DNA of 64,000 nt, taken from a virus. Below the pieces are notes generated by a model. It did not search any database, was not told the origin of the DNA, and was given only the letters and a program-made list of their open reading frames with translations. Both the position numbers and the translations under genes were made by a program. Where the stretch lies: positions 1-64,000 of IMG/VR virus record IMGVR_UViG_3300013108_000151. The stretch is one strand, 5' to 3'. Below, piece by piece: positions 1,775-59,350 of this stretch. How positions within the stretch are numbered: the stretch's first letter is position 1; every line of letters begins with the position of its first letter.

Positions 1775-2308
1775 TTATAGGCCAAGTTTTTCTTTACCAT
1801 AGTCACCTCGTATCCAGTTGATAACTGTTCCAGGATCAGTATTTGAAAATGGATCAATATCGGCATTATCTTTTTTGCCTTCTTCAACCCATTGTTTAAT
1901 AATTTTACTATCTTTTACAATCATAGCATATCGCCAAGATCTTGTGCCCATTCCGTTATTTTGCTTGTCTACTAATTGCTCCATACGTTTAGTAAATGCT
2001 CCGTTACCGTCTGGTAATAGTTTAACATGTTCAATGCCCAAATCTTTACCCCAAGCATTCATTACAAAGCAATCATTTACTGAAATACAGTAAATTTCAT
2101 CAATACCTTCGTCAAGAAACTCTTGGTATCTATCTTCAAACCCTGGTAAATGGTTAGTTGAGCAAGTTGGTGTAAAAGCACCTGGTAGTGAAAATACCAC
2201 TACAGTTTTATCTTTGAACCAATGGTCGCTATCATATGTTTTATATTCGCCATCAATTCTCATCTTCCATTGAATAAAAGGTACGTTATGTCCTTCTTTA
2301 TGTGCCAT
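1775..2308 (-). CDS. Peroxiredoxin (Prx5/AhpC-TSA type)
   Basis: A 177-residue thioredoxin-fold peroxidase that reduces peroxides through a peroxidatic cysteine. The family signature PGAFTPTCS is intact (residues 42-50), with the catalytic Cys at about 49. The downstream motif around KLLPDGNGAFTKRM and an Arg in the GTRSWRYAMIV strand fit the Prx5 subgroup. A second cysteine (SVNDCFVMNAWGK) sits where Prx5 enzymes often have one. The start has GGAG nine bases upstream. A phage copy could protect the infected cell from oxidative stress; this is inference. It lies directly before FolE on the same strand. Confidence 0.93.
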   Translation of the reverse strand: MAHKEGHNVPFIQWKMRIDGEYKTYDSDHWFKDKTVVVFSLPGAFTPTCSTNHLPGFEDRYQEFLDEGIDEIYCISVNDCFVMNAWGKDLGIEHVKLLPDGNGAFTKRMEQLVDKQNNGMGTRSWRYAMIVKDSKIIKQWVEEGKKDNADIDPFSNTDPGTVINWIRGDYGKEKLGL

Positions 2309-2334: not shown

Positions 2335-3012
2335 TTATTTATTATGACCTTTCATGCTCAAACAAATATCATAGAATTCTTGTTTTAGAGCAGGATCTCT
2401 TTCAAAGCCACCTAGCATAATTGCTGTTGTCATGTCTGACTCGTGTTCACGTACACCTCTGTGAGTCATACAATGATGTTCTGCTTTTACTACCACTGCT
2501 ACATGTGGAGTTTTAGCATATCTTTGTAATTCTTCCGCAATCTGTGTGGTCATTTCTTCTTGAATCTGCGGGCGTTCAGCAATATGATGTACTAGTCTAT
2601 TAAACTTTGATAATCCAATTACTTCGTCTTCTGGTACAATGCCTACCCATGCTTTGCCTACAATGTTTTGAAAATGATGGGCACAGGTTGACCTAATAGT
2701 AATAGGACCTGATGTATATAAACTTTTATATCCCATATTTGGAAAACTTGTAACACGTGGTATAGGTTGAAACCTCCCGCCAAATATTTCTTTTACATAC
2801 ATTTTTGCTACACGTCTTGCGGTATCATTTGTATTATGGTCGTGTTCAGTGTCAATTACCAAACTTTCCATAACTTCTTGTAGTTTACCTTGAACTTCAT
2901 CTTGTAGTTGATCTAGTTCACCTTCATGAATAAACTCAGATATATTATCATTACAATGAAATCTTTTGTTCTTTGCTTTGATTCTTTCTTTAATTACTTT
3001 ACTTATTTCCAT
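2335..3012 (-). CDS. folE: GTP cyclohydrolase I
   Basis: Converts GTP to 7,8-dihydroneopterin triphosphate, the first step of both folate and 7-deazaguanine (preQ0) synthesis. The 225-residue protein has the zinc-site motifs STCAHHF (Cys and His, about residues 108-114) and EHHCMTHRGV with the second Cys. The substrate-binding GLSKFNRLV segment is also present. Length is typical for the type I enzyme. SD GGAGA precedes the ATG. Its place 1.7 kb from a QueD-like T-fold gene and 3.7 kb from a DpdA-like gene suggests it feeds a DNA 7-deazaguanine pathway rather than folate. Confidence 0.95.
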   Translation of the reverse strand: MEISKVIKERIKAKNKRFHCNDNISEFIHEGELDQLQDEVQGKLQEVMESLVIDTEHDHNTNDTARRVAKMYVKEIFGGRFQPIPRVTSFPNMGYKSLYTSGPITIRSTCAHHFQNIVGKAWVGIVPEDEVIGLSKFNRLVHHIAERPQIQEEMTTQIAEELQRYAKTPHVAVVVKAEHHCMTHRGVREHESDMTTAIMLGGFERDPALKQEFYDICLSMKGHNK

Positions 3013-3049
3013 TTTTTATTTCTCCGATGTTAAGGCAGTGGATTGCCAT

Positions 3050-4117
3050 TTAGAAAGTTTCAGTTGCTTCATATAGTCTTTTGCCATTAAAGAAAGATGA
3101 AACTTTGTCTGTTAGTTTGTTACATACTGACTCATAATCATTTAACGTCATCATTTTATTAATGTGTTCCATTAGTTCAGTTTTATGTTCCAAATAGTTT
3201 TCCCATGAACTTGTCCATTCACTAGGATATAATACTTCAGGTGTTGCCATTTCGCTATAACTTAACCTATCTGGTACTAATGGTAATGTTCCTACCAAAG
3301 CACCTTCATACCAACTAATACCAAGTGTTTCTTGTAGGTTGGCACTAAACACTAGTTTACTTGTAGCAAGTAATTTATGATATTCGTCTTTTGTTAGTTG
3401 CTTTTCTTGAGCAACTATCCAATTATATTGTGGCATACTTTCTGCCAAATCTTTAAAAATGTTTAACTGTTTTTCAGGAGCCAACCTGTGTGGAAATACA
3501 ATGTTATTGTATTTAGGTGCTCCAGCATATGGCTTTAATGTATCTTCTAAATATTCCATAGGCCATCCAACTAGTTTAATGCTATGTAATAATTGTCTAT
3601 CAATGTCTCTATCATCATTCCAAAATGTATTTGTAAACATATCTATATGAAACTTTGTAGCAAAGAAGTTGTCATCATAACAATTATACATGCTCATCTC
3701 AGCATTTCTAACCCAAGGCTTATCGCCTATTAATCTACCCAAAAAGTCTGCTGGATCATAACTGCCGGCGTGCCACATGCCTCCTATTTTAATTTTAACA
3801 CCTAATAATTCTGCCATATACTTTAATTGTATAACAGTAGGATTCCAAGCATCAGTATAAAGAAAGTAATCGCCATCTTTAATTTTACCATCACAAAACA
3901 TTTTTCCTATTTGCTCTAGTTGATTACTTTTGTAAACATTTGTACCACCAAAGTTTAAAAATGCTCCTGGTGTTGTTGCCTGAGGAGTTTCACCACCACT
4001 AATAACAATTACATCATCTGTATTATGATGTTCTGCTAATTGCTTTGGTAAGTGCTTTTTCCACTGTGATGTGTAACGAGTGTCTACGGCTTCAATGTCT
4101 ACAATATAAACAGTCAT
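3050..4117 (-). CDS. GT-B-fold glycosyltransferase-like protein, 355 aa
   Basis: The C-terminal half has the look of a GT4-type donor site: VFPHRLAPEKQL (about residues 208-219) followed by SANLQETLGISWYEG (about 258-272), with paired glutamates spaced as in the EX7E motif. The N-terminal half (VISGGETP, YLFYTDAWNP region, GGMWHAGS) is consistent with an acceptor domain. It could glycosylate modified bases, a virion protein or a host glycan; the acceptor cannot be read from sequence. Its start at 4117 abuts the stop of the 112-aa gene, so they are co-transcribed. Confidence 0.75.
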   Translation of the reverse strand: MTVYIVDIEAVDTRYTSQWKKHLPKQLAEHHNTDDVIVISGGETPQATTPGAFLNFGGTNVYKSNQLEQIGKMFCDGKIKDGDYFLYTDAWNPTVIQLKYMAELLGVKIKIGGMWHAGSYDPADFLGRLIGDKPWVRNAEMSMYNCYDDNFFATKFHIDMFTNTFWNDDRDIDRQLLHSIKLVGWPMEYLEDTLKPYAGAPKYNNIVFPHRLAPEKQLNIFKDLAESMPQYNWIVAQEKQLTKDEYHKLLATSKLVFSANLQETLGISWYEGALVGTLPLVPDRLSYSEMATPEVLYPSEWTSSWENYLEHKTELMEHINKMMTLNDYESVCNKLTDKVSSFFNGKRLYEATETF

Positions 4118-4455
4118 TATTTTCTCATCATACCGTGTACGCCAGGTGCTCCATCATTGTCTTTAAGTTCTGCTACCTTTTGTTCTGCTTGTTTTAGCAT
4201 AGTTTGAGTAGCATTAAGAACTTCAATAGATTTTTCTAATTCGGTTAGTATGGCTTTGGATATACCTAACATCATAGGACCGTGTTCTTTAAGTCCTGCC
4301 CAAAACTTCTTATAATCATCGCCTTTATAATTGTCTGCTTCAATTAATAAATTTTGAAAGTCTTGAATAATTTTATGCGGATCTTTACCTACGTCTGTTT
4401 TTTTAACAGTCTTAGGCGTTGCTACTTTTTTTACTTTTTTTGTTTTCTTTGTCAT
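4117..4455 (-). CDS. Lysine-rich small phage protein, 112 aa
   Basis: The first 22 residues are a lysine/valine/threonine-rich basic tail (KKTKKVKK...). The rest is predicted helical with a coiled-coil tendency near residues 70-98. It overlaps the next gene upstream by four bases (ATGA) and abuts the glycosyltransferase downstream. The basic tail might bind nucleic acid. The family is not recognised. Confidence 0.6.
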   Translation of the reverse strand: MTKKTKKVKKVATPKTVKKTDVGKDPHKIIQDFQNLLIEADNYKGDDYKKFWAGLKEHGPMMLGISKAILTELEKSIEVLNATQTMLKQAEQKVAELKDNDGAPGVHGMMRK

Positions 4456-4733
4456 TTGTTAAGTCCTAATAATGTTTCTATTTGAGTATCATTAAATTTA
4501 ATCAGTATAGCATCTTCCATGTCATCTGTCCAACTACTGTCATCCCATACAAAATCTTTACCGTATGTATAACCATGTTTACCAAGTTGATTACATACCT
4601 GACCAACAGCATCAACTAATGTATAGTTGGCATTAAGAGCACCGCCTTCAATACTATTGCCATTAGCATCAGTGTTCCATGGATGCCTGTTACTAAATCT
4701 AGAAATCTGTAAATTTAATTCTTTACTGTACAT
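4452..4733 (-). CDS. Unknown protein, about 93 aa
   Basis: An ATG at 4790 is possible, but it lies deep inside the QueD-like gene. The ATG at 4733, eleven bases inside the end of that gene, fits the tight overlaps seen elsewhere, so I use it. The protein is acidic, with DFVWDDSSWTDDMEDAI near the C-terminus, and has no membrane segment. No family is recognised. It sits in the 7-deazaguanine cluster, but no role can be inferred from its sequence. Confidence 0.55.
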   Translation of the reverse strand: MYSKELNLQISRFSNRHPWNTDANGNSIEGGALNANYTLVDAVGQVCNQLGKHGYTYGKDFVWDDSSWTDDMEDAILIKFNDTQIETLLGLNK

Positions 4734-5196
4734 CACGTCCATGTCCATATTGAACAAACGATCCGTTTTCTCCATCTTCAGAAACATCAATCCAAATAGT
4801 ACGACCAGGATAGCGATCTGCTATTTGGCTATGTAAATCATCACAAATCATTTCACACGATTTGTAATCAAGTTCTAATGTTTTTTCAGCATATAGTTTT
4901 TCTAACCATCGCTTAAATTGGATAAACTCAATATCTCTGTCATCATGAAATACTTCTATCCAAACTTTAAAATGAAAAATATGTCTATGAGGATAACCTA
5001 AGAAACTAACATCATATTCGTCACCTGTTGCTAGTTTTGGATCATCTAATGCCGCAGGATATTTATGTATACCTTCTTTTCTAAAAGTTACCCAGATCAT
5101 CTTTTTAGAGTTACTACGAGTTTCAGCAATACTTTCTTTTAGTGCCTGTTGCCTCATAGGACTATCATCAATGTTTACTACGTTTTCTTGGCTCAT
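4723..5196 (-). CDS. QueD-like (6-pyruvoyl-tetrahydropterin synthase/T-fold) protein lacking the catalytic Cys
   Basis: 157 residues. After an N-terminal extension of about 32 residues, the spacing matches QueD: His44 (GIHKYP), the pair His70/His72 (PHRH, in place of HGH), a beta strand FHFKVWIEV, DRDIEFIQFKRWLE in place of the IIDFAELK helix, and a C-terminal IWIDVSEDGENGSF strand ending in the family's Glu region. The three zinc histidines are therefore present. The cysteine that normally lies four residues before HGH is a leucine here. Whether it makes carboxytetrahydropterin is unclear. A promoter at 5222-5250 drives it, and FolE lies downstream. Related proteins occur in marine T4-like phages. 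Confidence 0.65.
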   Translation of the reverse strand: MSQENVVNIDDSPMRQQALKESIAETRSNSKKMIWVTFRKEGIHKYPAALDDPKLATGDEYDVSFLGYPHRHIFHFKVWIEVFHDDRDIEFIQFKRWLEKLYAEKTLELDYKSCEMICDDLHSQIADRYPGRTIWIDVSEDGENGSFVQYGHGRDVQ

Positions 5197-5221
5197 TTTA
5201 GTTCCTTTACTTTAAGTTAAT

Positions 5222-5250
5222 ATAATAACAGGTTGTGCTATTAAAGTCAA
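5222..5250 (-). promoter_or_regulatory. Sigma70-like promoter for the QueD-like gene
   Basis: TTGACT (5250-5245), 17-base spacer, TATTAT (5227-5222) on the minus strand, about 26 bases before the ATG at 5196. The SD AAAGGAAC lies in between. Confidence 0.75.
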
Positions 5251-5254
5251 CCTT

Positions 5255-5590
5255 TTAATATAATTTAAATTCATATCCAATTGTAATCCCCCAATTATTG
5301 TCTGGAGAAGTTTCATATGAAGGTGCCAAATACCAACTGTCTTTTGTTACTCTCGTCATTGGCACAATTTTCTCTCCACTGTATCCTGTTACTAATCCAA
5401 TTTCCAATTCCGAATTAAATGGTGTATCAAACTTTCTTCCAATATAAGCACCAACATTTGATTCGCTGTTATAATAAACTCCTGCTATTGTATTATCAAT
5501 TGTACATCTAGCATGTGGGTGAACAGCATTGTAATCTCCTTCTAGTCCAACGTGTAGCGATAACGCCACTAGCAAAGATATACAACTCAC
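5255..5590 (-). CDS. Secreted small beta-rich protein (possible outer-membrane-like), 111 aa
   Basis: The start is a GTG at 5590 overlapping the stop of the upstream gene (TAAGTGA), with GGAAGA as SD. The first 15 or so residues are hydrophobic and resemble a signal peptide or anchor. The remainder alternates polar and aromatic residues in short strands (VGAYIGRKF, LEIGLVTGYSG, WGITIGYEFKLY) and ends in an aromatic, as small beta-barrel outer membrane proteins do. Function is unknown. Confidence 0.55.
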   Translation of the reverse strand: MSCISLLVALSLHVGLEGDYNAVHPHARCTIDNTIAGVYYNSESNVGAYIGRKFDTPFNSELEIGLVTGYSGEKIVPMTRVTKDSWYLAPSYETSPDNNWGITIGYEFKLY

Positions 5591-5937
5591 TTATTCTTCC
5601 ATTTTAAGTAAAACAAGTCTAGCTCTTGATCACCTGCTAAGTATATCTTTCCAACTCCGCCTCGTCTTCTTCCAGGGTTTCCAAATTTAGAAGAAGAAAA
5701 ATCTGTATCAAAGCACCAACTACTATTACAAGCATAACTCCTTTTGTAATCATTATACCAATAATACTCGATTGACGGTCCCCAGGTTTCCCAACACCAC
5801 GCTCTCACCTCCAAAAATGTATGGGTTGGGATTTGTATTTGGTAATCAAACTCACCATAGAGTTTGTTTCTGCCGTCAATCTTTCTTATTTTGTGCCAAT
5901 TATTTTTAGGTCCTAATACTGGATATACTGATGTCAT
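5587..5937 (-). CDS. Unknown protein, about 116 aa
   Basis: Start at 5937 (MTSVYPV) chosen because GAGGA lies five bases upstream. A GTG start at 5973 overlapping the previous stop is the alternative. Rich in Trp and Tyr (WCWETWGPSIEYYWYNDY), two close cysteines (residues near 80), and a glycine/arginine patch GRRRGGVGK. No membrane segment is evident. No family is recognised. Confidence 0.55.
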   Translation of the reverse strand: MTSVYPVLGPKNNWHKIRKIDGRNKLYGEFDYQIQIPTHTFLEVRAWCWETWGPSIEYYWYNDYKRSYACNSSWCFDTDFSSSKFGNPGRRRGGVGKIYLAGDQELDLFYLKWKNK

Positions 5938-5972
5938 ATGGTTCCTCATCTTTAACGGGCCTAAGAAATTCA

Positions 5973-6167
5973 CTAAGTAGTTTCTTGTTGTAATCTTAAT
6001 CTGTTAATTTTATCTTTGATTGCTAATTTTTCTTTTTTCAATTCTACTAGATCGTATTTGCCACTTGTTGTGCGATCGTTTGCTCTACCCTTTTCCAAGT
6101 CAGTAGTTAACCTGTCGAGTTGCTTGTGTTTTTCTTGTAACTCTCTTATTTCAGTTTTATTTTTCAT
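5973..6167 (-). CDS. DUF465/YdcH-like small coiled-coil protein
   Basis: 64 residues, almost entirely helical and highly charged. The pattern of a short ELQEKHKQLD helix followed by a LVELKKEKLAIKDKINRL helix matches the small DUF465 proteins of proteobacteria, which form helical hairpins of unknown function. It overlaps its neighbours by one to four bases and sits between two unknown genes upstream of the QueD-like gene. Confidence 0.6.
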   Translation of the reverse strand: MKNKTEIRELQEKHKQLDRLTTDLEKGRANDRTTSGKYDLVELKKEKLAIKDKINRLRLQQETT

Positions 6168-6685
6168 TCTATCTCCTTGTCTTTAGTGTATTTGTCCCAA
6201 CTAGTAAATTTACTGTGATCCATTAAGTCATGTAATGTATGACTCCATACACCTGGGTTAGTCTTATTATAGCCTTTGTCGTCTATTTTAATACAAGTAT
6301 TATAATTCCATTGATTAACATATGGAATTACAACTCTAATTTGAGGAATAAAGTTATTAAATTCTGAATACCCGCCTTCTAACACCCATTCCAAATTAAT
6401 AGTACTAGGTATATCTAAACTACAAAGTATTCCTTCTTGTAGAAATGCTTTGATCATTAATTCCCAATCTTCAAATTCGTCGTTTGTTTTAGGATTGTAA
6501 CTATGGTTAGCACCAAAGAATATATGTTCACAGTTAAGATTTGTATACCAATCTTTAATAGTGTTATAGTCTTGTAAACCAGTAACAAACAATGTTTGTT
6601 TACCGTATGCTGGTGTTTTCTCTACTTCAATACCTGTAAAAAACTGTACGTTATCTTTTACTGTTCCGTTGTAATTTCTTTCCAT
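6164..6685 (-). CDS. Conserved phage protein of unknown function, 173 aa
   Basis: Soluble alpha/beta protein starting FFTGIEVEKTPAYGKQTLFV (residues 15-34), which reads like a beta-strand, loop, beta-strand opening. A central HIFFGANHS and a LQEGILCSLDIP stretch follow. The SD AGGTGA precedes the ATG at 6685, eight bases from the stop of the DpdA-like gene. Proteins like this travel with queuosine-type genes in marine T4-like phages as far as I recall, so a part in the 7-deazaguanine pathway is possible but not shown. Confidence 0.6.
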   Translation of the reverse strand: MERNYNGTVKDNVQFFTGIEVEKTPAYGKQTLFVTGLQDYNTIKDWYTNLNCEHIFFGANHSYNPKTNDEFEDWELMIKAFLQEGILCSLDIPSTINLEWVLEGGYSEFNNFIPQIRVVIPYVNQWNYNTCIKIDDKGYNKTNPGVWSHTLHDLMDHSKFTSWDKYTKDKEIE

Positions 6686-6692
6686 AAGTCAC

Positions 6693-8150
6693 CTATTCAA
6701 ATAAAGCATTAAATTGTGAACTAGCATTAACAGTTTTCTTACCAATAGCACCCCTAGTTCCAGGTACCATCATCCAAAGTTTTTGATGTTGTTCAATAAA
6801 ATCTAATGCTGTATCCCTATCGTCAATTTCAAATACTCGATCAATCACTTCACATACTGCTTGTCTTTCAAAAGTATCATTAACAAGCCAATTAGGATAT
6901 GAACCATTATCCATAGCCTTGTTTGCTTCTTGTACAGATCTAATGTGTGTGTAAACATTATGATTCATCATTAAGAAATATGAGAAACTATCCCAACTAG
7001 TGTTGCCTTCTTTATTGTTTTTGTTTAAATCGCCTGGGCCATATTTACAAATATCATTAACTAGTAGTCCTTCACTTAATGGACTAGGATTCCAATTAGT
7101 GTGATGTTTAGTACATTCTTCGTCCCAAGGTCTAGTGTCTTTACTAAAGGCTTTATCATCTGGGGCAGGTTCCATAATATAAGACCATTTACCGTTGTGA
7201 TCTAAACGCCAGTTTGTATATTGCTGTCCGTTGGCTGTACATAAAAATGGAGAAGCACAATCATATGTTACAGTAAAGTTTGGATTGTGATACTTTCGTA
7301 TAGCACGTTGAACAGCCGTTAGCATAAGGCCCCATTCAAGTTTTGATGTTCCTAAGAAATGCATGAAGTCTTGTTTGCCTTGTTCGATTAAACCATCAAA
7401 ACGTAATATTACTAATCGTTTAAGTGCTAAATGTATATCGCACATATTCTGTCCACCCATAGACCATCCATTAAAGTGGTTGTCTGGATAAACTTTAGGG
7501 TCACAAAAGTGTTTCATTTGCTCATACCAGTCATCTGCTTGAGCAAAGTTTTCACCTTGTAATACATTTAAAAATTTACAGTTACCGTTACGATTTTTAA
7601 TGAAGTATTCATTGTTAAACTTTGTGCCATCGACTGCCTCTTGATAGGAACTAATTTGACTAGCCGTCGCACCTTCTGGAGAACGTGATACCCAAGCCGG
7701 AATATCAAGTACCATCCCATAGTCCATAAACTCGTCCATCCAAGCAAGAACTTGCTCACGTTTCTTTTGTGCTTTAGGACATCCGCTATTTGCTTTCCAG
7801 TCGCCTTCCCATTTGCCTTTACCAATTTGGAAGCCGCCGGAGTCACCTAATAACCAACTGTTGTCACGATCTCTGTTACGAGTCATGTCTTCTTTATCAA
7901 CTTGTGTTAGTTCTAAATTGGCGTGTCCTGCCGAGTACAAACTCCATTTGTAATTCCACATACTAGCGGCCGGTTCTAACCAGTTACCACTTTCTACTCC
8001 ACATGCCATATTCTTTGGCACTCTATCATGAGCAATATATTCTGTATAACGTTGTTTACCTATAAACGTAGAATAAAAACTACTGATAGCAGGCAAAAAG
8101 ATAGCATAATCTTTCTGCTCTGTTGTTAGATTTGTGGGTAGTTCACTCAA
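6693..8150 (-). CDS. dpdA: DpdA-like 7-deazaguanine DNA transglycosylase (TGT superfamily)
   Basis: 485 residues with the ordered landmarks of tRNA-guanine transglycosylases. DSGGFQ is at residues 103-108 (general acid Asp103). LDIP (148-151), LNVLQG (194-199) and GWSMGG (228-233) follow, as substrate-pocket motifs. Then come FLGTSKLEWGL (265-275) and TYDCASP (295-301), with Asp297 in the nucleophile position. The zinc CxC...C...H site of bacterial Tgt is not evident, as in DpdA proteins. DpdA exchanges guanine in DNA for preQ0-type bases and shields phage DNA from restriction. The start is TTG with GGGGGTAAG upstream. FolE and a QueD-like gene lie downstream; QueE and QueC are not in this window. 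Confidence 0.85.
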   Translation of the reverse strand: MSELPTNLTTEQKDYAIFLPAISSFYSTFIGKQRYTEYIAHDRVPKNMACGVESGNWLEPAASMWNYKWSLYSAGHANLELTQVDKEDMTRNRDRDNSWLLGDSGGFQIGKGKWEGDWKANSGCPKAQKKREQVLAWMDEFMDYGMVLDIPAWVSRSPEGATASQISSYQEAVDGTKFNNEYFIKNRNGNCKFLNVLQGENFAQADDWYEQMKHFCDPKVYPDNHFNGWSMGGQNMCDIHLALKRLVILRFDGLIEQGKQDFMHFLGTSKLEWGLMLTAVQRAIRKYHNPNFTVTYDCASPFLCTANGQQYTNWRLDHNGKWSYIMEPAPDDKAFSKDTRPWDEECTKHHTNWNPSPLSEGLLVNDICKYGPGDLNKNNKEGNTSWDSFSYFLMMNHNVYTHIRSVQEANKAMDNGSYPNWLVNDTFERQAVCEVIDRVFEIDDRDTALDFIEQHQKLWMMVPGTRGAIGKKTVNASSQFNALFE

Positions 8151-8161
8151 CGTCTTACCCC

Positions 8162-8893
8162 CTATTTGCTTTGTGCTGGTAAGATATACTCGTAAACAGC
8201 AAGTCCGCTATCAACATTAATTTGTGCCGCACCTTGGTCTGAAATCATCATTGTTTTATCGCCCGGCAGTTTTAAAATTTGTTGTATTTGTAATACTGGC
8301 CATGCCCAACCGTGTGTAAGTTTACCTTCCACATCTGGCTGAAATACAAAACTACCAGCATGTGTAGAATGGTCACCAAATACAAACTCTAAATTACCAT
8401 TTGTAGTTTTAGCAATAAATGTTGACTCTTCTGAGTGTACTTGGGCCTGGTAAGCCAAACGTTGTATTGCCGCTACAGTTGGCTCTAGTGTTACTGTCCA
8501 TTCAACGCCTTTAAACTTAACTGATTTTAGTTTTTCACTAATAAGTTCACTAGTCATAAACCTGTAGTCATTGTTAAAGTCGCCACCCTCGTTTTCAAAG
8601 TGAATGCCTACTGGAACTTCTGTCCCATTACGCTCTTGCTTTGTTAGTTCTAGTTTAGCATTGTCCTTGTAAACTGGAATTTTTAATAGCAAGTCTAGTT
8701 TATTTAGGTTTGGCATACCAAACGTACCCATAAACTCTGCTATTGGGTTTTTAAACTTTGCTTTAATAATAACACTACGGTCTTCGGCTAAACCTTCTAG
8801 TACTGTTTCTTCGTCTGTACCTTCTACTTTAACTAGGTCAATAAAACCCAATCCGTGTGTATGTTGTACGATGTCTTGTAAATAATCTTTCAT
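8162..8893 (-). CDS. DNA polymerase sliding clamp, gp45-like
   Basis: 243 residues from the ATG at 8893, chosen because GGAGAAG sits eight bases before it; the ATG at 8908 lies inside that SD. The all-beta/alpha pattern, the clamp size (T4 gp45 is 228 aa) and the run VIIKAKF then FMGTFGMPNLNKLDLLLKIP resemble gp45-type clamps (loader-opened ring, tethers polymerase and, in T4, late transcription). The ending GLAVYEYILPAQ fits a final clamp strand. No catalytic motif is expected. It has its own strong promoter. Identification rests on pattern and context, so it is less certain than the polymerase. Confidence 0.7.
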   Translation of the reverse strand: MKDYLQDIVQHTHGLGFIDLVKVEGTDEETVLEGLAEDRSVIIKAKFKNPIAEFMGTFGMPNLNKLDLLLKIPVYKDNAKLELTKQERNGTEVPVGIHFENEGGDFNNDYRFMTSELISEKLKSVKFKGVEWTVTLEPTVAAIQRLAYQAQVHSEESTFIAKTTNGNLEFVFGDHSTHAGSFVFQPDVEGKLTHGWAWPVLQIQQILKLPGDKTMMISDQGAAQINVDSGLAVYEYILPAQSK

Positions 8894-8917
8894 TGATTTC
8901 TTCTCCATTTATATTGT

Positions 8918-8946
8918 ATTATAACTTGTTCGTATATTAAAGTCAA
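8918..8946 (-). promoter_or_regulatory. Sigma70-like promoter for the clamp gene
   Basis: TTGACT (8946-8941), 17 bases, TATAAT (8923-8918) on the minus strand. The -10 box is 25 bases from the SD-supported start at 8893. Confidence 0.8.
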
Positions 8947-9734
8947 GTCTTTTTTCGATGAATTTTATTCAATTCAACGGCTTTTTCTAATAACGATAAA
9001 TCTATTCCTAAATCTGTCGTTTCATTTAATAAGGCGTTAGTGTCTTTTGGAAAACAATGTCCTCCCCAACCAAACTTACCATCAGGACCAGGAACCATTG
9101 TATGTCCTGACCCAATCCTTGGATCCAATCCTAATAGATTGCTTACTGTATCGTAATTGGCTCCAGTTTTGCTACATAGTTCAAATAGTTCATTAAAGAA
9201 CGTTAGTTTTGTTGCTAGGAAACTATTAGCAAAATACTTCACCATACTTGCTTCTTCGAGTGTACAAGTGTGTATATGCTCTACTAATGGCAGACTTTGT
9301 CTTAACATATCTGCCCAAAACTTTGTTTTATCTCCGCCTAGTATACAATACTTTTGATTAACAAAATCTTCTAATGCTGTTGCTTCTCTTAAAAACTCCG
9401 GATAGTATGTAATTGATTGTTTGTTCCATGCTTTATTATATTCTTCCATCCGTGCTAACGAACTCCATGGTACTGTACTTTTAATTAAAATTGGCAAATC
9501 AATTTCACCAGTACTAGCATCTTTTAATACATTCCAAATATTACTATCATCACAAGAGCCGTTTTCTGCTGGCGGTGTGCTAACAGCAATTATAAGCCCA
9601 TCTGCTGTTTTAATATGGTCTTGTAATTTGTTATTGTTTAGTCTAGGGTCTACAGGTATTATCTCATGATGTTTTGATAATAGTTCTCCAATAGCACTTC
9701 CTACAAAGCCATATCCTGCTATAATTAACTTCAT
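8943..9734 (-). CDS. Short UDP-glucose/GDP-mannose dehydrogenase-family protein
   Basis: 263 residues, compared with about 400-450 for the family. The N-terminal Rossmann motif GYGFVGSAIG (residues 8-17), the central-domain helix with VKYFANSFLATKLTFFNE and the catalytic loop GWGGHCFPKDTNAL with its Cys are present. The C-terminal UDP-binding domain is missing. It may be a natural short form, acting with another protein, or using a smaller substrate. It overlaps the adjacent epimerase gene by four bases, so the two probably supply a modified nucleotide sugar. Their place between clamp and polymerase is unusual. Confidence 0.85.
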   Translation of the reverse strand: MKLIIAGYGFVGSAIGELLSKHHEIIPVDPRLNNNKLQDHIKTADGLIIAVSTPPAENGSCDDSNIWNVLKDASTGEIDLPILIKSTVPWSSLARMEEYNKAWNKQSITYYPEFLREATALEDFVNQKYCILGGDKTKFWADMLRQSLPLVEHIHTCTLEEASMVKYFANSFLATKLTFFNELFELCSKTGANYDTVSNLLGLDPRIGSGHTMVPGPDGKFGWGGHCFPKDTNALLNETTDLGIDLSLLEKAVELNKIHRKKT

Positions 9735-10462
9735 ACAATTTCCTTAATATATTCTTTTACATTGTATTTAGGTCGCCAGCCTGTTTTTACTAGCACTTCT
9801 ATGTCCGCAACATTCTCTGATGCTTCACACGGGTCTCCATCTTTTAAGGGAACATTAATATCAAAACTACTAGCAAGTTCGTTTATTTTTACGCCAATGC
9901 CTGTGCCAACATCAACAATACCGTTTAACTCACTATTACCTAAACTTTTAATAATAGCATTACATATATCATCTACATGGATAAAATCTCTTGTATGATT
10001 AGTTACATACTTTAATGTTTTATCTCTAATACGACCTATTAACATATCTCCTCTGCTACCTGGTCCATACACGGTTGTGAATCGCATACCTAAACTACGT
10101 TTAGGTGCTACTTCTTCCATAGCCTTTTTACTTGTACCATAAGGAGAAAGCCACCATTTTTTAGCACACGAACTACTAGCATATATAATTCTCATCTCAT
10201 ATAATGATGCTAAGTTAAATAGACGTTTACTTAATTCTACGTTATTATACCAATACTTTTCTGGTTCCTTCAAACTATTTCTAACATTGGCATATCCAGC
10301 CAAGTGTACAACAGCATCACAACCTTCAGGCTCCCACATTGAGATATCTCTGTTCTTACTAATGTTTCTATCCCATTCTATTACGTCGTGACCAAGGTCT
10401 CTTAGTAGTTGAGTTAGCCTACTACCTATAAAACCTTTGCTACCTGTTACACTTACTTTCAT
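9731..10462 (-). CDS. NAD-dependent epimerase/dehydratase (extended SDR)
   Basis: 243 residues from ATG 10462 (SD AGGAATAAA); the longer frame to 10519 runs into the polymerase gene and is rejected. GSKGFIGS (residues 7-14) is the NAD glycine motif. VVHLAGYANVR is the usual strand 4 region, SSSC plus YGTSK provides the catalytic Ser/Tyr/Lys, and a VYGPG segment follows. These enzymes epimerise, dehydrate or decarboxylate nucleotide sugars in the cytoplasm. It is co-translated with the sugar dehydrogenase-like gene downstream. Confidence 0.9.
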   Translation of the reverse strand: MKVSVTGSKGFIGSRLTQLLRDLGHDVIEWDRNISKNRDISMWEPEGCDAVVHLAGYANVRNSLKEPEKYWYNNVELSKRLFNLASLYEMRIIYASSSCAKKWWLSPYGTSKKAMEEVAPKRSLGMRFTTVYGPGSRGDMLIGRIRDKTLKYVTNHTRDFIHVDDICNAIIKSLGNSELNGIVDVGTGIGVKINELASSFDINVPLKDGDPCEASENVADIEVLVKTGWRPKYNVKEYIKEIV

Positions 10463-10469
10463 TTTATTC

Positions 10470-13124
10470 CTATTCAAAATCAAACAACGAATCAAATGTT
10501 GTTGACATATTTGTATCACTTTCTAAATCCCAATCTAGTACACCTAGTAAGTTATCTACTTTACTTGTTATTACACTTTGTTCCATTTCAGCATCGTTAA
10601 ATGGTAACTCTTTAAACCATTGTGGCAAGTGTAGTTGATCTGTTGGATATGCTACACTTACAAAGCCTAATGGATTTGGTTTCAGTTTACAAACAATTAC
10701 TTTTTGCCCATCCATAATTTGTTCACTGTACTTGTCGTGATTCATTCTACACAAAGTATTCCAGTTCATACTTGCTCTAACATGCCCTGGCATATTTGTT
10801 TTACCTTCACGTCTTTCTGCTTCAGTAAACTTTGTTAAATTATTACAACGTTTGGGTGAACCTTTTTCCCAAGCAGGCCTGTGTTTAAAGTCTTGCTTAA
10901 AGTTTTTAATTTTCTCAACAACTTGTTCTCTGTCGTCGCCTGTAAGTACACCTAGTAAAATATCACTTAAAAAGTCTTGTATTACTTTTGGTGTGTCACT
11001 ACGTTTTAAGTCTAAGCCCATTGCTTTTACTTTGCCTGGCTTGCCATGTTGATCTAAACGTGTTCCTTCTAAATCATATATTAATGCCGCATAACGTTTC
11101 TTAGTAATATACAAACCTTTTTCAGCAACTATTTCTCTGCCACCTTGTATAATCTCACCATTAGAGCGAGGGCAGTTAAAGGCTTCCTTCATATGCTTTG
11201 GAAACTCTACGTTCATCCTTTCAGATATGTTGTCATATAGTTTAACAGCCATATCTTTACCCCATTCCATTTCACCTTTTTCAACAGCATCTTTAATTAC
11301 TGGCCAAGCACTAAAATATACAGAGTCTGTATCACCATATATAATACTCTCACCTCTATGATCAAACTCACCTGTTATCATTTCATTAGTCTTAGCACTC
11401 ATAAACTTAGCAATAGTTCTACCTGTTAGTGTTGTACTCTGTCCAATACGTTTATCAAAGAATCTACAACCTGGATTAAGAATAGCACCATACAAACTAT
11501 TTAGGTTAATCTTTTTAACAAGTTGCCTTTTGTCAAAGAATGCTTTTTCAGCCGGAGTAGTTGCTGATGATTTAAGTTTTTGTATATCTTGTCTTTCCTT
11601 GTACCAACGTTCAAGTAGTCCTGGAATAATACCTTTTTGTTCATTTGTAAATATTGTACCATTAGCACTTAGTATCCATGGTTTGCCTTCTAAGAATATC
11701 TTCTTATAGATTTGAGCACCTGTTAATATTTCATTAGGAGCATTTTCCCATTCAACAACAATCTCATCTACTTTGTCTTGGTCCATAACCATTTGATATT
11801 CTGTGCTACCAAACTTGCCCTCCCATGCTTCAGCAAATGATTTCTTCTTTCCCATTGCCTCATTAACATGAGCGTCATTATAATCAGGTCTAAGTTGTCC
11901 TACGATAGTTGCTGGATCCATATTCAATGCTCTAATGGCACTTGGATATAGCGAATTAATATCAATAGCACCAATCCAGTCATGTAGTCCTTTCTTAGGA
12001 TAAGCCACATAAGCACCAGCGGCCTGTGTATTACCTTCGTGCTTACGTCTATCTGGAACTACAAAGCCTTGTTCGTGTGCTTCATTGATAATTGCTTGTT
12101 CTGTAACAGCAACAGCACCCATTGTTGTTTGTATTAAAACAGTATTAGCATGAGCAAGTTCGTTGCTTAGATCAGCAAATTTAAGTTTCTCATCTAGTTT
12201 GTTAAGTAGCATTGTATCTTGTCTAGAATATTCAATAAACTTTTCCCAGTCGTTATTATATAATTGATCTAATGTTCCTGTGTACGGAACTTTTTGATCA
12301 CCTAATTCATATTCACTAATCGCATCTAAAGAATAAGAATGCATCTCATGGTAGGTGTATTTTCGATACAGTTGCATATAGTCCATGTGTACACGGCCTA
12401 TTAAATCAAATGTAATTTGTTCCTTACCAAATCTTTCAAACTTACGTTCTTTTGGAAACTGCCCAAACAAACAAAAACGCCTTGTGTCGTCTTTACTTAA
12501 TACACGTTTAACTCTGTTAACCATGTACGGAATATCATAACCTTCACTATTCCAACCACTTAATACATCAGCATCTTCTATTAAGTCTAAAAACGATTTA
12601 AGAAGATCTTCTTCTTTATCAAATACAAATGTGTTATCAAACTTACTAACAATTTTATCAACTTCTTCTTTAGACATTCCTTTAGGCGGAACTAATAGTG
12701 TAACTAGTTGCTCTGCCCATTGTAAATATATAGAAATTGCTGTTACAGGATTAAACGGATCTTCTGGAGGACTAAAGCCTCTGCTAACATCAAAGTCTAC
12801 CTCAATATCAAAAAATGCTATTTGTAGTTTAGGAGCATTTTGACCTAAGTAGTTTTCTTCCAAACATCTAAACACAGGATTCATATCTGATTCATATGTT
12901 TTAACATTTACATGAAGTGCTTTCTCTCGTCTAAAATCTTTGTTACTACGACATTGAATCCTGCTCACAGGATTACCGTATATACTTTTAAACTTACCCT
13001 TGGGGTCGTCATAGTACATTACATACTTTGCCTGATGCTCGTAATATTGTCGTTGTTGATTTTTATCTCGCTCAACGATGTGGATTCTATCTCGTTGTCG
13101 ATCAAAGAAAGCGTCTACATACAT
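10470..13124 (-). CDS. DNA polymerase, family B (gp43-type)
   Basis: 884 residues, as for T4-like gp43. Exonuclease motifs: FFDIEVDFD (Exo I, about residue 104), LSGWNSEGYDIPY (Exo II) and EYSRQDTMLL (Exo III), so proofreading should be intact. Polymerase motifs: AIDINSLYPSAIRALN (motif A), KKINLNSLYGAI (motif B) and IYGDTDSVYF (motif C, with the catalytic aspartates). It replicates phage DNA with the clamp at 8162-8893 and the clamp loader at 47464-48393. The start ATG at 13124 has AGGAGC nine bases upstream. The order with sugar genes between clamp and polymerase differs from T4. Confidence 0.97.
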   Translation of the reverse strand: MYVDAFFDRQRDRIHIVERDKNQQRQYYEHQAKYVMYYDDPKGKFKSIYGNPVSRIQCRSNKDFRREKALHVNVKTYESDMNPVFRCLEENYLGQNAPKLQIAFFDIEVDFDVSRGFSPPEDPFNPVTAISIYLQWAEQLVTLLVPPKGMSKEEVDKIVSKFDNTFVFDKEEDLLKSFLDLIEDADVLSGWNSEGYDIPYMVNRVKRVLSKDDTRRFCLFGQFPKERKFERFGKEQITFDLIGRVHMDYMQLYRKYTYHEMHSYSLDAISEYELGDQKVPYTGTLDQLYNNDWEKFIEYSRQDTMLLNKLDEKLKFADLSNELAHANTVLIQTTMGAVAVTEQAIINEAHEQGFVVPDRRKHEGNTQAAGAYVAYPKKGLHDWIGAIDINSLYPSAIRALNMDPATIVGQLRPDYNDAHVNEAMGKKKSFAEAWEGKFGSTEYQMVMDQDKVDEIVVEWENAPNEILTGAQIYKKIFLEGKPWILSANGTIFTNEQKGIIPGLLERWYKERQDIQKLKSSATTPAEKAFFDKRQLVKKINLNSLYGAILNPGCRFFDKRIGQSTTLTGRTIAKFMSAKTNEMITGEFDHRGESIIYGDTDSVYFSAWPVIKDAVEKGEMEWGKDMAVKLYDNISERMNVEFPKHMKEAFNCPRSNGEIIQGGREIVAEKGLYITKKRYAALIYDLEGTRLDQHGKPGKVKAMGLDLKRSDTPKVIQDFLSDILLGVLTGDDREQVVEKIKNFKQDFKHRPAWEKGSPKRCNNLTKFTEAERREGKTNMPGHVRASMNWNTLCRMNHDKYSEQIMDGQKVIVCKLKPNPLGFVSVAYPTDQLHLPQWFKELPFNDAEMEQSVITSKVDNLLGVLDWDLESDTNMSTTFDSLFDFE

Positions 13125-45186: not shown

Positions 45187-45561
45187 TTAAAAAGGTAAAT
45201 CATCTTCTTCAGGATCTGGTGGTGTTAGTAGTTCTAATGTTATATGCTTTTCGACTTCTAACTCATATGCTTCTGCCATTGCTTTAATGTGAGGGTGCTT
45301 TTCTTCCATTTCTTTGTTACGATTTAATTTAGCAGGAATACCTAATACTTTTTCAATCCTTTCTAACCTTGTATCTATGTCAGTGACAGTTCGTTCTGTA
45401 AAAGATTCTGTGCTGTTTTCTGTATCTGTGAAGTGTATGTCTTTATAATTACCAAGTGAAACAGTAACATCAGATAAGGTAGTTGAATAATTCCATTGAT
45501 CTAATGTCTTTTCGGCATCATCTAAGTCTAACTCTAATTGATATTCATCTTCTGGGTTCAT
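45187..45561 (-). CDS. Acidic unknown protein, 124 aa
   Basis: Starts with ATGA overlap on the radical SAM gene stop. An acidic N-terminal helix (EYQLELDLDDAEKTLDQW), a Thr/Ser middle and a coiled TRLERIEKVLGIPAKL segment, ending PDPEEDDLPF. No family is recognised. Its place suggests co-expression with the radical SAM enzyme upstream. Confidence 0.6.
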   Translation of the reverse strand: MNPEDEYQLELDLDDAEKTLDQWNYSTTLSDVTVSLGNYKDIHFTDTENSTESFTERTVTDIDTRLERIEKVLGIPAKLNRNKEMEEKHPHIKAMAEAYELEVEKHITLELLTPPDPEEDDLPF

Positions 45562-46841
45562 AATTCTATTCTCTCTTCTTTTTTAGATCGCAATTTTGTA
45601 GCAATTGATCCACAGTTGTCTATACAAATGTTAAGTCTAGGCTTTTCAGGATCATCTGTTCTATTGTTCCAACTGTCTTGTAAGTCTTCTTGAAAGAACT
45701 TATGATGTAAAATATCTTCTAACGTGTGATGACTAGTGTAGTTCCAGTTTTCATCATACTTGTTAACATAGTTATTATGATACTCGTTATCAGGTTGTCC
45801 TTGCTCGTTTGCTGAATCTTTATTCCATGGTCTACCAAAGTATGCTGTCATATGACAGCAAACATGTACACGACCGTCCCATTCGATTTGTAGTTTACCT
45901 TCGTTACCCCATTGACACCAAATGCTACAATTATTAGCATAGTCGTCCATGTCGTTATTAAACTCTTCAACTACAATTTCCTTTGCTTTCTTTTCCATGT
46001 CTTTGTATGCTTCTGTTGTATGGCTGTGTTCAGCACCTTCTGACATGTCTTTTTTCTTTACTTTAGTAAAGCCTGAGTGTTCATAACTTGTTTCTTTTTC
46101 TGCTACAGTCATTACACCTGTTCTAATTGCTTCTTCTCTTAATGAATTAGAAATGTGTTCTGCCATTCTACTACGTCTTATATCAAACCTAGAGAATCCG
46201 TATTCTTTTGCTAGTTGTTTGGCTTCTTCTATTTGATGTTTGTTGTGTTCAAATTCTATAAACTGCCATACTGCTACTCCGCCAGCATCCATAAACCATT
46301 TGGCTCTTTCTAAAACCGCTTCGTAAGGTACGCCACGACGGTACATTTGGTGTGTTTTATCGTCAACTCCTTCAAGAGCAAATATAACTTCCGAGTTATT
46401 AGGATTATATCTTTCACTAGCAATCTTGCCTAGTTCAGTCCAAAATGCTTTGTCTCTAACACCACCGTTTGTGCTAATCCACAAGTCAGTACGTCTATTA
46501 CGATCGTTTGCTTTACGTTGTTCTTTTTGTGAGTCACTTACGTCTGCTATGTAAGTTAATATTTCAATCAAATCTGGATGCATTATACAGTCACCAAACG
46601 TACCATTAAAGTCTAATGTTTTAAGTCCGCCCATTACTGTAGGAGTAAAAATATTCTTAACAGTTTCTAAAGGCATGTTACCTTTGTGTCCTACTTTAAT
46701 AGCAGGATTAATATCGCCCTCTTTAAGTCCTAGCCTTGGTACATCAGATGCTACACGTCGTAGACAACCTGGGCAGAAACTATTACAATTGGCTGTAATA
46801 TCTATTGTGATTCTTCTAAGTTTTTTTGGATTTAAAAACAT
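45558..46841 (-). CDS. Radical SAM enzyme with SPASM-like C-terminal cysteine region
   Basis: 427 residues. The Fe-S site CNSFCPGC (about residues 18-25) is the CxxxCxxC signature. The TIM-barrel core follows (TLDFNGTFGDCIMHPDLIEIL, STNGGVRDKAFW). The C-terminus has further cysteines (CSIWCQWGNEGK, HVCCHMTAYFG, ICIDNCG), like SPASM domains that bind extra clusters in peptide- and sugar-modifying enzymes. Too long and differently organised for QueE. It forms one transcript with a 2OG-like enzyme upstream (one-base overlap) and the SGNH paralogues downstream, suggesting a modification pathway. Confidence 0.88.
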   Translation of the reverse strand: MFLNPKKLRRITIDITANCNSFCPGCLRRVASDVPRLGLKEGDINPAIKVGHKGNMPLETVKNIFTPTVMGGLKTLDFNGTFGDCIMHPDLIEILTYIADVSDSQKEQRKANDRNRRTDLWISTNGGVRDKAFWTELGKIASERYNPNNSEVIFALEGVDDKTHQMYRRGVPYEAVLERAKWFMDAGGVAVWQFIEFEHNKHQIEEAKQLAKEYGFSRFDIRRSRMAEHISNSLREEAIRTGVMTVAEKETSYEHSGFTKVKKKDMSEGAEHSHTTEAYKDMEKKAKEIVVEEFNNDMDDYANNCSIWCQWGNEGKLQIEWDGRVHVCCHMTAYFGRPWNKDSANEQGQPDNEYHNNYVNKYDENWNYTSHHTLEDILHHKFFQEDLQDSWNNRTDDPEKPRLNICIDNCGSIATKLRSKKEERIEL

Positions 46842-48536: not shown

Positions 48537-48743
48537 TTAATATCGAGGAATATTGGCCATTGCTCTTTGAGTATCGGCATCGTTTTGGGCTGTTTGGACA
48601 GCCTTTTTTAACTCAGAATTTTCACGTCGTAAGCGTTTATTTTCAGTAATAAGATCGTCAATTCGTCTTTCCAAATCCAACGGGCCTCTATCATCAGGTA
48701 AACTGGCTATGTATTCATTTGCTGTCATTTTCTCTTTTGTCAT
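48537..48743 (-). CDS. Coiled-coil small protein, 68 aa
   Basis: Start at 48743 (MTKEKMTAN) has GGAG about ten bases upstream and an ATGA overlap with the halogenase stop. A long amphipathic helix (LERRIDDLITENKRLRRENS, then ELKKAVQTAQNDADTQRAMA) has strong heptad character. Function not recognised. Confidence 0.65.
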   Translation of the reverse strand: MTKEKMTANEYIASLPDDRGPLDLERRIDDLITENKRLRRENSELKKAVQTAQNDADTQRAMANIPRY

Positions 48744-49840
48744 AACATATTCTCCTTGAGCAAGTTCCAACTGTGTTTGCTCATCAATCCTTGGTGGCCG
48801 TGTTTACTATACTGTTTAATATCGGCTAAGGATTGCTCTTTGTATTGTTTAAAGTGATCCCAGTACGGACCTTTAGCACTATTAGTTCCATATAAAGCAT
48901 TCACCCATTTATGTATGCCTTCATATACTTTAGACATTAGCCTGTTATACACTTTAGGCTTATGACGTAATGCTATTAACTGTTTTATACTTGCCTGTGC
49001 TATAAAGTTCGCTGTAGCATTTAATGGTTCAATAAATCCAGCACTAATACCAACAGCAACAACATTGCCAACCCATTGCTCTACTGGCCTACGTGATTTA
49101 AATTTAATTACATTTTCTGCTTCAAGTCCTGTTTTTTCTGTAAACTCTTTTTTAGCATCTTCTATACTAATAAACTTACTACTAAACACATAACCATAAC
49201 TCATTCTACTTTGTAAACTAATACTCCACATCCACCCAGCATCCATCGTTTGTGCTCTAGTAAAAGGTTCGTATCGGGGCTCTCCGTTTGCCACTATAGC
49301 ATGATCATTAATAAGCACATCACTTTCAATATGTTTAACACCAACGTGTTTACTTAATATTCCACTTTCGCCTGTAGCATCAATAAACATATCAGTATCG
49401 TTGTAATCTTCTAAAGTAAAGTCTCTAGGAATAATTTTAAAATTAGGTTTGCTAACACAATGCTCTTTTAATAGTTCGCAAAATTTAGGAGCATCAATGT
49501 GATAACTAAATGTTTGACGTTGCTTTGTTGCTAGATTATTATCTTCATTTGCGGCATAGTATATCCAGTTATCATGGCTCCATCCTTCAAACACGTTACC
49601 ATATTTGAAGTAGCCATTAGATCTATCAACTAACTCTTGGTCAGTTATTCCTAGTATTTGACTAATCTCGTTGATAACTGGAATAGTGCTTTCGCCTATT
49701 CGCCTAATAATAGTGTTAGGGTTATTATACATTACTACTTGTTCACCATTTTCAACAAGGTATAGGGAAGAGATCCAACCAGCAACACCATTACCAACAA
49801 CTTGTACAGTTGTTCCGACATCGAATATTGTATTAGTCAC
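48740..49840 (-). CDS. Flavin-dependent tryptophan halogenase-like protein
   Basis: 366 residues (bacterial enzymes are about 500-530). VVGNGVAGWISSLYL is the GxGxxG FAD site (about 11-25), GESTIPVINE matches the GExxxP motif, and FKYGNVFEGW holds a Lys where the catalytic lysine of PrnA lies. GWMWSISL matches GWxWxIP except for the final Pro. Enzymes of this family halogenate aromatics with reduced flavin and chloride. Copies occur in marine phages, with unknown substrate. Neighbours are coiled-coil and GroES-like genes. Confidence 0.85.
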   Translation of the reverse strand: MTNTIFDVGTTVQVVGNGVAGWISSLYLVENGEQVVMYNNPNTIIRRIGESTIPVINEISQILGITDQELVDRSNGYFKYGNVFEGWSHDNWIYYAANEDNNLATKQRQTFSYHIDAPKFCELLKEHCVSKPNFKIIPRDFTLEDYNDTDMFIDATGESGILSKHVGVKHIESDVLINDHAIVANGEPRYEPFTRAQTMDAGWMWSISLQSRMSYGYVFSSKFISIEDAKKEFTEKTGLEAENVIKFKSRRPVEQWVGNVVAVGISAGFIEPLNATANFIAQASIKQLIALRHKPKVYNRLMSKVYEGIHKWVNALYGTNSAKGPYWDHFKQYKEQSLADIKQYSKHGHQGLMSKHSWNLLKENML

Positions 49841-58319: not shown

Positions 58320-58652
58320 TTATACAGCAAATGATTCACCACAACCGCAACTTGCCGTTGCTTGTGGATTTTTAACTGCTAGGAACGAACCGCCTAATTC
58401 GACAACATAATCAATGGTACTACCTAAAACATACATTTCTGCTAGTTTGTTGATCATTAGTTTATTATCTGAATCGTCGCTTAGGCTTACTTCAATCCAC
58501 TCTTCAGGGTCTTCTATTTCATTTGCCATTTGCCAATCATAAGTAAACCCGCTACAGCCTCCACCTTTTACAGTAAATGTAGCATATTTCTTATCATTTT
58601 TCGTTGTAGCGTCAAGTAAATAAGTTTTGGCTTTTTGTGTTACTTCTATCAT
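58320..58652 (-). CDS. A-type Fe-S carrier (IscA/ErpA family)
   Basis: 110 residues, the usual length. The three conserved cysteines are present: GGGCSGFTYDW (about residue 33) and CGCGESF at the C-terminus. The body DYVVELGGSFLAVKNP is the family strand. These proteins hold and hand over 2Fe-2S or 4Fe-4S clusters. It lies one base from the MIP18/SufT gene and just before a ferredoxin gene, forming an Fe-S block. Confidence 0.93.
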   Translation of the reverse strand: MIEVTQKAKTYLLDATTKNDKKYATFTVKGGGCSGFTYDWQMANEIEDPEEWIEVSLSDDSDNKLMINKLAEMYVLGSTIDYVVELGGSFLAVKNPQATASCGCGESFAV

Positions 58653-58653
58653 T

Positions 58654-59034
58654 TTAAAATCCTAGTTCTAGTTGGGCCAGTTCGCTCGCTAATTTTGGCC
58701 CAAATGTTGGTTGAAATGACAATTCAACTTTAACAGTATTTATACCTTCAACTTTTTCAACTGCCTCTTTTACCCATTTTGGCATTTCGCCTGCTACTGG
58801 GCAGAAAGCACTAGTTAATGTCATTATAATATCAACGTTATTGTCGTTGTCAACATCCATTTTATATATAAGTCCTAAGTCATGTACGTTTATGTGTATC
58901 TCTGGGTCATGTACTGTTCTTAGTGCTTCTTTAATTAGTTGTGCTTGTTTGATATTACCATTAGTTGTGACCCAATCAAATGTCATATCTTCGCTTCTAT
59001 ATCTATTGTATACGTCTGGTTGTTTCTCAGTCAA
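58654..59034 (-). CDS. MIP18/SufT-family (DUF59) Fe-S maturation protein
   Basis: 126 residues. EALRTVHDPEIHINVHDLGLI (about 37-57) is the DPE-x-VxDLGLI signature. VDIIMTLTSAFCPVAGEMP, with the conserved Cys, and VELSFQPTFGPKLA complete the domain. SufT/MIP18 proteins help place Fe-S clusters into target proteins. Overlaps the ferredoxin gene by eight bases. A TATAAATA string inside it (58737-58744) is more likely coding chance. Confidence 0.9.
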   Translation of the reverse strand: MTEKQPDVYNRYRSEDMTFDWVTTNGNIKQAQLIKEALRTVHDPEIHINVHDLGLIYKMDVDNDNNVDIIMTLTSAFCPVAGEMPKWVKEAVEKVEGINTVKVELSFQPTFGPKLASELAQLELGF

Positions 59035-59350
59035 TATGGTTTACTTTTACAACTAGGCTATCTGATTCTACACCACGTAATTCACATTGGCAACCTAGTC
59101 TGCTCTTTCCTTCTACCATGTCAGGAGCATAGTCTAACAAATCTAATTCACTTAGGTCTGTTGCTTGTCCTATGATTTCACTTCCTTTTTCTACTACTAC
59201 ATGGCAAGTAGCACAAATACAAGAACCTCCACAATCACCCCAAGGTTCCCCTTTGAAGTGATCGTAGAGTGCGATCATTATGTTGTCGTTGTCTGTGTAT
59301 TCCACATCAAACTCTCTGCCTGATCTTGTAATACACTTGAACGTTTTCAT
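59027..59350 (-). CDS. 2Fe-2S ferredoxin (adrenodoxin/ISC type)
   Basis: 107 residues. The four cluster cysteines are in DCGGSCICATC (CxxxxxCxxC spacing) and RLGCQCEL. ALYDHFKGEPWG before the site is in the place of the usual ARDAGI helix, which is typical of divergent ISC-type ferredoxins. It carries electrons for Fe-S assembly, oxygenases or radical SAM enzymes. Together with the two genes downstream it makes a three-gene Fe-S operon. Confidence 0.93.
   Translation of the reverse strand: MKTFKCITRSGREFDVEYTDNDNIMIALYDHFKGEPWGDCGGSCICATCHVVVEKGSEIIGQATDLSELDLLDYAPDMVEGKSRLGCQCELRGVESDSLVVKVNHID

Follow-up and report, generated by a model that had tools for sequence, protein, structure and literature searches.

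A candidate QueC-independent module for 7-deazaguanine DNA modification in marine phages, with a QueD-fold paralog and a conserved glycosyltransferase

Which modified base would a phage make with a GTP cyclohydrolase, a QueD-fold protein and a DNA-guanine transglycosylase, if no QueC is at hand to complete preQ0? The question is raised by a 64,000-nucleotide stretch (the window) that comprises positions 1 to 64,000 of the IMG/VR virus record IMGVR_UViG_3300013108_000151, from a marine phage. A first-pass annotation, made from the letters alone, placed a 7-deazaguanine DNA-modification module at 2335-8150, containing FolE, a T-fold protein and a DpdA-type transglycosylase, and expected a preQ0-type product. 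Homology, profile comparisons and a structural model agree with that module and its three components, and all of its open reading frames (ORFs) were present as described, all on the minus strand. The most telling gene of the module is one that the annotation did not mention, a conserved glycosyltransferase (GT). We think it somewhat probable that this is a QueC-independent 7-deazaguanine DNA hypermodification module in which the GT decorates the base.

The FolE assignment is beyond doubt, given matches of the 225-aa protein to Pfam GTP_cyclohydroI (3.5e-46, 157 bits against a cut-off of 27) and to the PHROG GTP cyclohydrolase family (1.3e-51). For the 485-aa protein, a single-sequence hidden Markov model (HMM) gave just a sub-threshold match to the Pfam family of tRNA-guanine transglycosylases (TGTs; E 0.11). 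Single-sequence HMMs and PDB sequence searches missed the relationships of both this protein and the 157-aa protein described below, and a Pfam TGT search run across entire records did not pick up Paride, ACP17 or X1. The AlphaFold2 model of the 485-aa protein (pLDDT 79, pTM 0.85) had nine PDB matches at E ≤ 1e-3 in Foldseek, all of them TGTs (best 6.7e-7), and the 50-row VIA list likewise held nothing but TGTs (Z 18.5, 300 residues, 4.1 Å). Its family profile matched cellular TGT at 97% (E 1.1e-10, 276 columns), with the DSGGFQ, Q-G, G-G and DC-x-x-P motifs in register. The catalytic pair D103/D297, equivalent to D102/D280 of the Z. mobilis enzyme, aligned to DSGGFQ and DC-x-x-P; D103, D149 and D297 were invariant across 25 close and 11 divergent DpdA members, and the base-contact residues are D149 and Q198-G199. 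The first-pass annotation had named the lack of a TGT barrel and of its catalytic aspartates as grounds for rejecting its reading; the model and the profiles show the barrel and both aspartates. The identification as a DpdA-type transglycosylase is well supported, and its action on DNA is predicted.

Profile comparison matched the window DpdA to DpdA2 of phage nt-1 (97.8%, E 6.7e-13), although BLASTP gave no match between the two at 0.01. It also matched the DpdA group of ACP17, X1 and BUCT-ZZ01 (99.6%), which BLAST places with nt-1 DpdA2 at 33–37%. By profile, the window enzyme would be a sister group of DpdA2 and not a clear member; DpdA of Enterobacteria phage 9g (DpdA1) had no profile match to it (2%). 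This placement bears on the idea of a role in host tRNA queuosine or folate metabolism instead of DNA modification. Folate synthesis also uses FolE, and the fold of the transglycosylase is that of tRNA-TGT, but the enzyme has no CxCxxC zinc motif of the kind found in TGTs, its gene adjoins polymerase and clamp genes, and the group closest to it by profile is the DpdA2 group of nt-1, a phage with 7-deazaguanines in its DNA (PMC6884629). We consider a role in tRNA or folate metabolism very improbable.

The T-fold protein that had been noted between FolE and DpdA is a remote relative of QueD. A profile of the 157-aa family matched a set of 43 QueD sequences at 92% (E 5e-7, 108 columns), against at most 2% for controls from unrelated families; a two-sequence QueD alignment gave just 0.6%, and it was the larger set that raised this to 92%. 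No PTPS match over the cut-off was found for the protein, and two family members reached 0.017 at best. Residues H44, H70 and H72, which coincide with or adjoin the QueD zinc histidines, do not vary among 15 divergent members and form a putative zinc triad that the paralog has retained. The column of the QueD catalytic Cys is occupied by Leu66, which is invariant in the family, and the alignment lacks the Asp-His segment of QueD, so the paralog should not make 6-carboxytetrahydropterin. The protein appears to share the QueD fold without being a working QueD. It is a candidate for an enzyme that processes 7-carboxy-7-deazaguanine (CDG) in place of QueC, and is possibly DpdL. Cui and colleagues are said to have reported dDG and dCDG in phages in 2023, and to have predicted DpdL as a CDG decarboxylase.

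As the first-pass annotation had remarked of QueE and QueC, neither was detected in the full record of 64,881 bases, and the same was true of QueD. The suggestion of a host supply or a replacement for QueE does not agree with the relatives. Of 30 other IMG/VR records, 21 have QueE, as does Paride, and the three nearest relatives (G002, G005 and G006) have both QueE and a canonical QueD, at approximately 9–10 kb and 8–9 kb past FolE, respectively. Base 1 of the window is 2.3 kb from FolE, so both genes are missing because the contig ends before they would be reached. The record is probably a genome fragment, since the DNA polymerase in the window most resembles the polymerases of large phages, Phosso and Atu_ph07 among them. 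The sole radical-SAM gene detected in the window (45558-46841, minus strand) was rejected as QueE; its 427-aa product matched Radical_SAM at 1.1e-7 but did not match the QueE profile. It adjoins a gene for a 208-aa protein of no assigned family.

The distribution of QueC follows another pattern. Among five complete phages with the GT, QueC was absent from Paride, Phosso, ACP17 and BUCT-ZZ01 and sub-threshold in X1 (16 bits against a cut-off of 22). Six phages have the paralog without the GT; QueC was absent from phiST, RHph_I1_18, Ahp1, Bakedbeans and MA9V-3, and D479 had a partial match. The DpdA phages 9g, nt-1, 2.275.O and GR7B do have QueC, and a tblastn search found no member of the 157-aa family in any of them. 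The 157-aa family and QueC are mutually exclusive and replace each other, which suggests that the branch point of the pathway is CDG and not preQ0. A preQ0-type modification that relies on QueC or a substitute from the host is conceivable in principle, since many hosts of DpdA phages have a full queuosine pathway (PMC6884629), but host-supplied QueC would not explain why phages carry either QueC or the paralog. We regard this explanation as improbable, and the preQ0 product initially expected for the module is not supported.

The gene neighborhood associates the GT with the same module. A scan yielded 80 IMG/VR loci, and in 43 of them the sequence runs on for over 5.5 kb beyond dpdA. All 43 have the QueD paralog and the GT, and 42 have p173, a conserved protein. 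The order dpdA, p173, QueD paralog, GT, all on one strand, was constant across these loci. In whole-record profile searches, five complete phages with the 157-aa family (Paride, Phosso, X1, ACP17 and BUCT-ZZ01) had both the GT family and the window DpdA superfamily. Six other complete phages have the 157-aa family and were found to lack both the GT and the window DpdA superfamily. The paralog and GT accompany a DpdA2-type enzyme in ACP17, X1 and BUCT-ZZ01 as well as the sister type seen in the window, so their link is not simply one phage's inheritance. ACP17 has queD, folE, p173, dpdA, GT, paralog and queE in a single run, in that order. The module is broadly distributed among marine phages; it is also found in the cultured, complete-genome phages Phosso, ACP17, BUCT-ZZ01, X1 and Paride/PA5oct. 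Gene content gives us QueD and QueE in relatives, the absence of QueC, and the strict co-occurrence of paralog, GT and DpdA.

The trio of DpdA, paralog and GT also recurs in GTDB contigs. In the isolate Aurantimonas sp. VKM B-3413 (NZ_JAJAVB010000009, 6065-9442), genes for DpdA, a Vut_1/YhhQ-like protein, the QueD paralog and the GT are consecutive, with a gene for a periplasmic binding protein on one side and a GGDEF/EAL gene on the other, on what looks like a segment of a bacterial chromosome. The Vut_1-type protein (match at 7e-5) belongs to the family of the preQ0 transporter YhhQ. This arrangement ties the trio to 7-deazaguanine although neither FolE nor QueE adjoins it. The cassette is possibly a bacterial version of the modification system.

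A rival outcome is an unglycosylated 7-deazaguanine (dDG or dCDG). Here the paralog would be DpdL, DpdA would insert its product, and the substrate of the GT would be a different base, a protein or a surface glycan. Phages phiST, RHph_I1_18, Ahp1, Bakedbeans and MA9V-3 have the paralog without GT or QueC, so the paralog works without the GT. It is hard to explain on these terms, however, why many unrelated phages, and a bacterial chromosome, have the GT beside or close to the paralog and DpdA. We think an unglycosylated base unlikely, although it deserves more weight than either of the alternatives above.

The 355-aa protein itself is predicted to be a GT4-like glycosyltransferase. Eight of 12 divergent members of its family matched Pfam GT4 (Glycos_transf_1), with 8e-12 as the best. 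Across the same 12 members R211, K216 and E271 are invariant, and position 263 holds E in ten of them and D in the other two; the R/K donor-phosphate residues and the E263-x7-E271 motif are intact in the window protein. Some of the related genes carry a glycosyltransferase annotation, with the family mostly annotated as hypothetical. Homology and structure together establish FolE, the DpdA fold and its catalytic residues, and the relationship of the paralog to the QueD fold; for the GT, the homology of its relatives points to the family. Of 63 relatives, 32 have a nucleotide-sugar epimerase and 10 a dehydrogenase, and an epimerase-like protein adjoins the Paride module genes. Nucleotide-sugar enzymes beside the module possibly fit a supply of sugar donor, though not a universal one. 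A distant relative of the GT (26%) is found in an unrelated sugar cluster of Xanthomonas phage PhiXhv-12 (6669-9903), where it adjoins genes annotated as glutamine-fructose-6-phosphate aminotransferase and a BshB-like deacetylase.

The first-pass annotation had listed three unknown genes of the cluster as candidates for missing steps. Of these, p173 alone is conserved (about 75 of 80 loci), and among 50,697 phage records it was found only in the PA5oct group and ACP17. The other two, at 4452 and 5587, are rare (Table 1), and all five small ORFs at 4117-4790 and 5255-6167 are not conserved parts of the module. The p173 model had no PDB match at E ≤ 1e-3, and its sole confident viral structure match was the ACP17 homologue. 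Profile comparisons gave 0.1–0.3% for p173 as a relative of QueE, TGT or QueD, and a VIA match to B. subtilis QueE (Z 6.2, 130 residues) was too low to accept.

We propose the following pathway. FolE from the window, with QueD and QueE encoded past the contig end, would make CDG. The QueD-fold paralog would then take CDG, or a base derived from it, instead of QueC, and would most likely remove or convert the carboxyl group. The TGT-fold DpdA would swap guanine in replicated DNA for the product of the paralog, and the GT4-type enzyme would then add a sugar, perhaps aided by p173 and by phage nucleotide-sugar enzymes. The broader claim, that sugar-decorated 7-deazaguanine occurs in the DNA of these phages and of at least one bacterium, through a QueC-free branch with a repurposed QueD fold and a GT4-type GT, could in our judgment equally well prove right or wrong.

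Several points weigh against this proposal. The window GT matches Pfam GT4 (Glycos_transf_1) at 0.073, under the cut-off, and its assignment comes through its relatives. That the GT would act on the inserted base is suggested by gene association, and nucleotide-sugar genes occur in just about half of the relatives. A fully decarboxylated base would have no C7 group for an ordinary O-glycoside, so the paralog would have to yield another product, or the sugar would have another destination. QueC-like matches were seen in the fragmentary relatives G005, G007, G012 and G019; these are partial or weak (19–23 bits) and are perhaps other PP-loop ATPases. Finally, we found no nucleoside analysis of any of these phages in the literature consulted.

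The passages of the Paride and MIJ3 papers that we found report no DNA modification, and none of the papers searched covers DpdL, DNA modification in ACP17 or glycosylated deazaguanine. The transglycosylase module is of a known kind; its QueC-free branch with a conserved GT is, within the reach of our search, undescribed, although some of it may have been reported before. Modified pyrimidines in phage DNA are known to carry sugars; we know of no report of glycosylated guanine in DNA. If our proposal is true, a sugar-bearing modified guanine would be new to DNA, and functions would follow for phrog_17812, for the GT family and for p173. The modification may also bear on how these phages avoid restriction.

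Table 1. Genes of the module and its upstream neighbors in the window, listed in gene order.
Feature	Position	Strand	Remarks
DNA polymerase	13124-10470	-	Closest to those of large phages
NAD-dependent nucleotide-sugar epimerase/dehydratase	9731-10519	-	Possible sugar donor supply
UDP-glucose/GDP-mannose-type nucleotide-sugar dehydrogenase, limited to N and central domains	8943-9734	-	Possible donor supply
248-aa protein	8908-8162	-	Aligns with Phosso gene annotated as sliding clamp
DpdA-type DNA-guanine transglycosylase (predicted), TGT fold, 485 aa	6693-8150	-	Model, profiles, catalytic residues
p173, conserved protein	6164-6685	-	Found solely alongside this module
Small ORF with DUF465 (7.6e-7)	5973-6167	-	9/80 loci
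Small ORF	5587-5973 (first-pass annotation, 5587-5937)	-	6/80 loci
Small ORF	5255-5590	-	4/80 loci
QueD-fold paralog, 157 aa, phrog_17812	4723-5196	-	Candidate CDG-processing enzyme
Small lineage-specific ORF	4452-4790 (first-pass annotation, 4452-4733)	-	7/80 loci
Small lineage-specific ORF	4117-4455	-	3/80 loci
GT4-like glycosyltransferase (predicted), 355 aa	3050-4117	-	Family relatives and motif residues
FolE, GTP cyclohydrolase I, 225 aa	2335-3012	-	Pfam and PHROG

Some other genes in the window were recorded in passing. The small ORF at 5255-5590 has a PHROG match to PagP-like proteins (3.4e-6) and occurs in near relatives only. Directly after FolE lies a peroxiredoxin gene (1775-2308, minus strand; PHROG 2.3e-68) that near relatives retain. 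A PHROG match to tryptophan halogenase (1.7e-64) was found at 48740-49840, and three neighboring ORFs at 58320-59350 resemble, by eye, iron-sulfur assembly proteins and a ferredoxin; both lie on the minus strand.

One comparable known system is that of nt-1, which makes dPreQ0, dADG and dG+ through a DpdA2 pathway (Hutinet et al. 2019, PMC6884629). Both systems combine a TGT-fold DpdA with FolE, QueD and QueE, but nt-1 has QueC, whereas the module described here has a QueD paralog and a GT and no QueC. The dG+ pathway of 9g likewise has a phage transglycosylase that inserts a 7-deazaguanine and adjoins polymerase and clamp genes; it differs in having Gat-QueC and a DpdA1 outside the profile range of the window enzyme. 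In the phages reported to have dDG or dCDG, the pathway also halts at CDG without QueC and a CDG decarboxylase is predicted, but no GT is known to belong to that account. The glucosyl-hydroxymethylcytosine of T-even phages shares the two-stage logic of a special base followed by a sugar, whereas in the proposed pathway a deazaguanine would be put in once the DNA has been replicated, the base chemistry is unrelated and the enzyme that would add the sugar is GT4-like.

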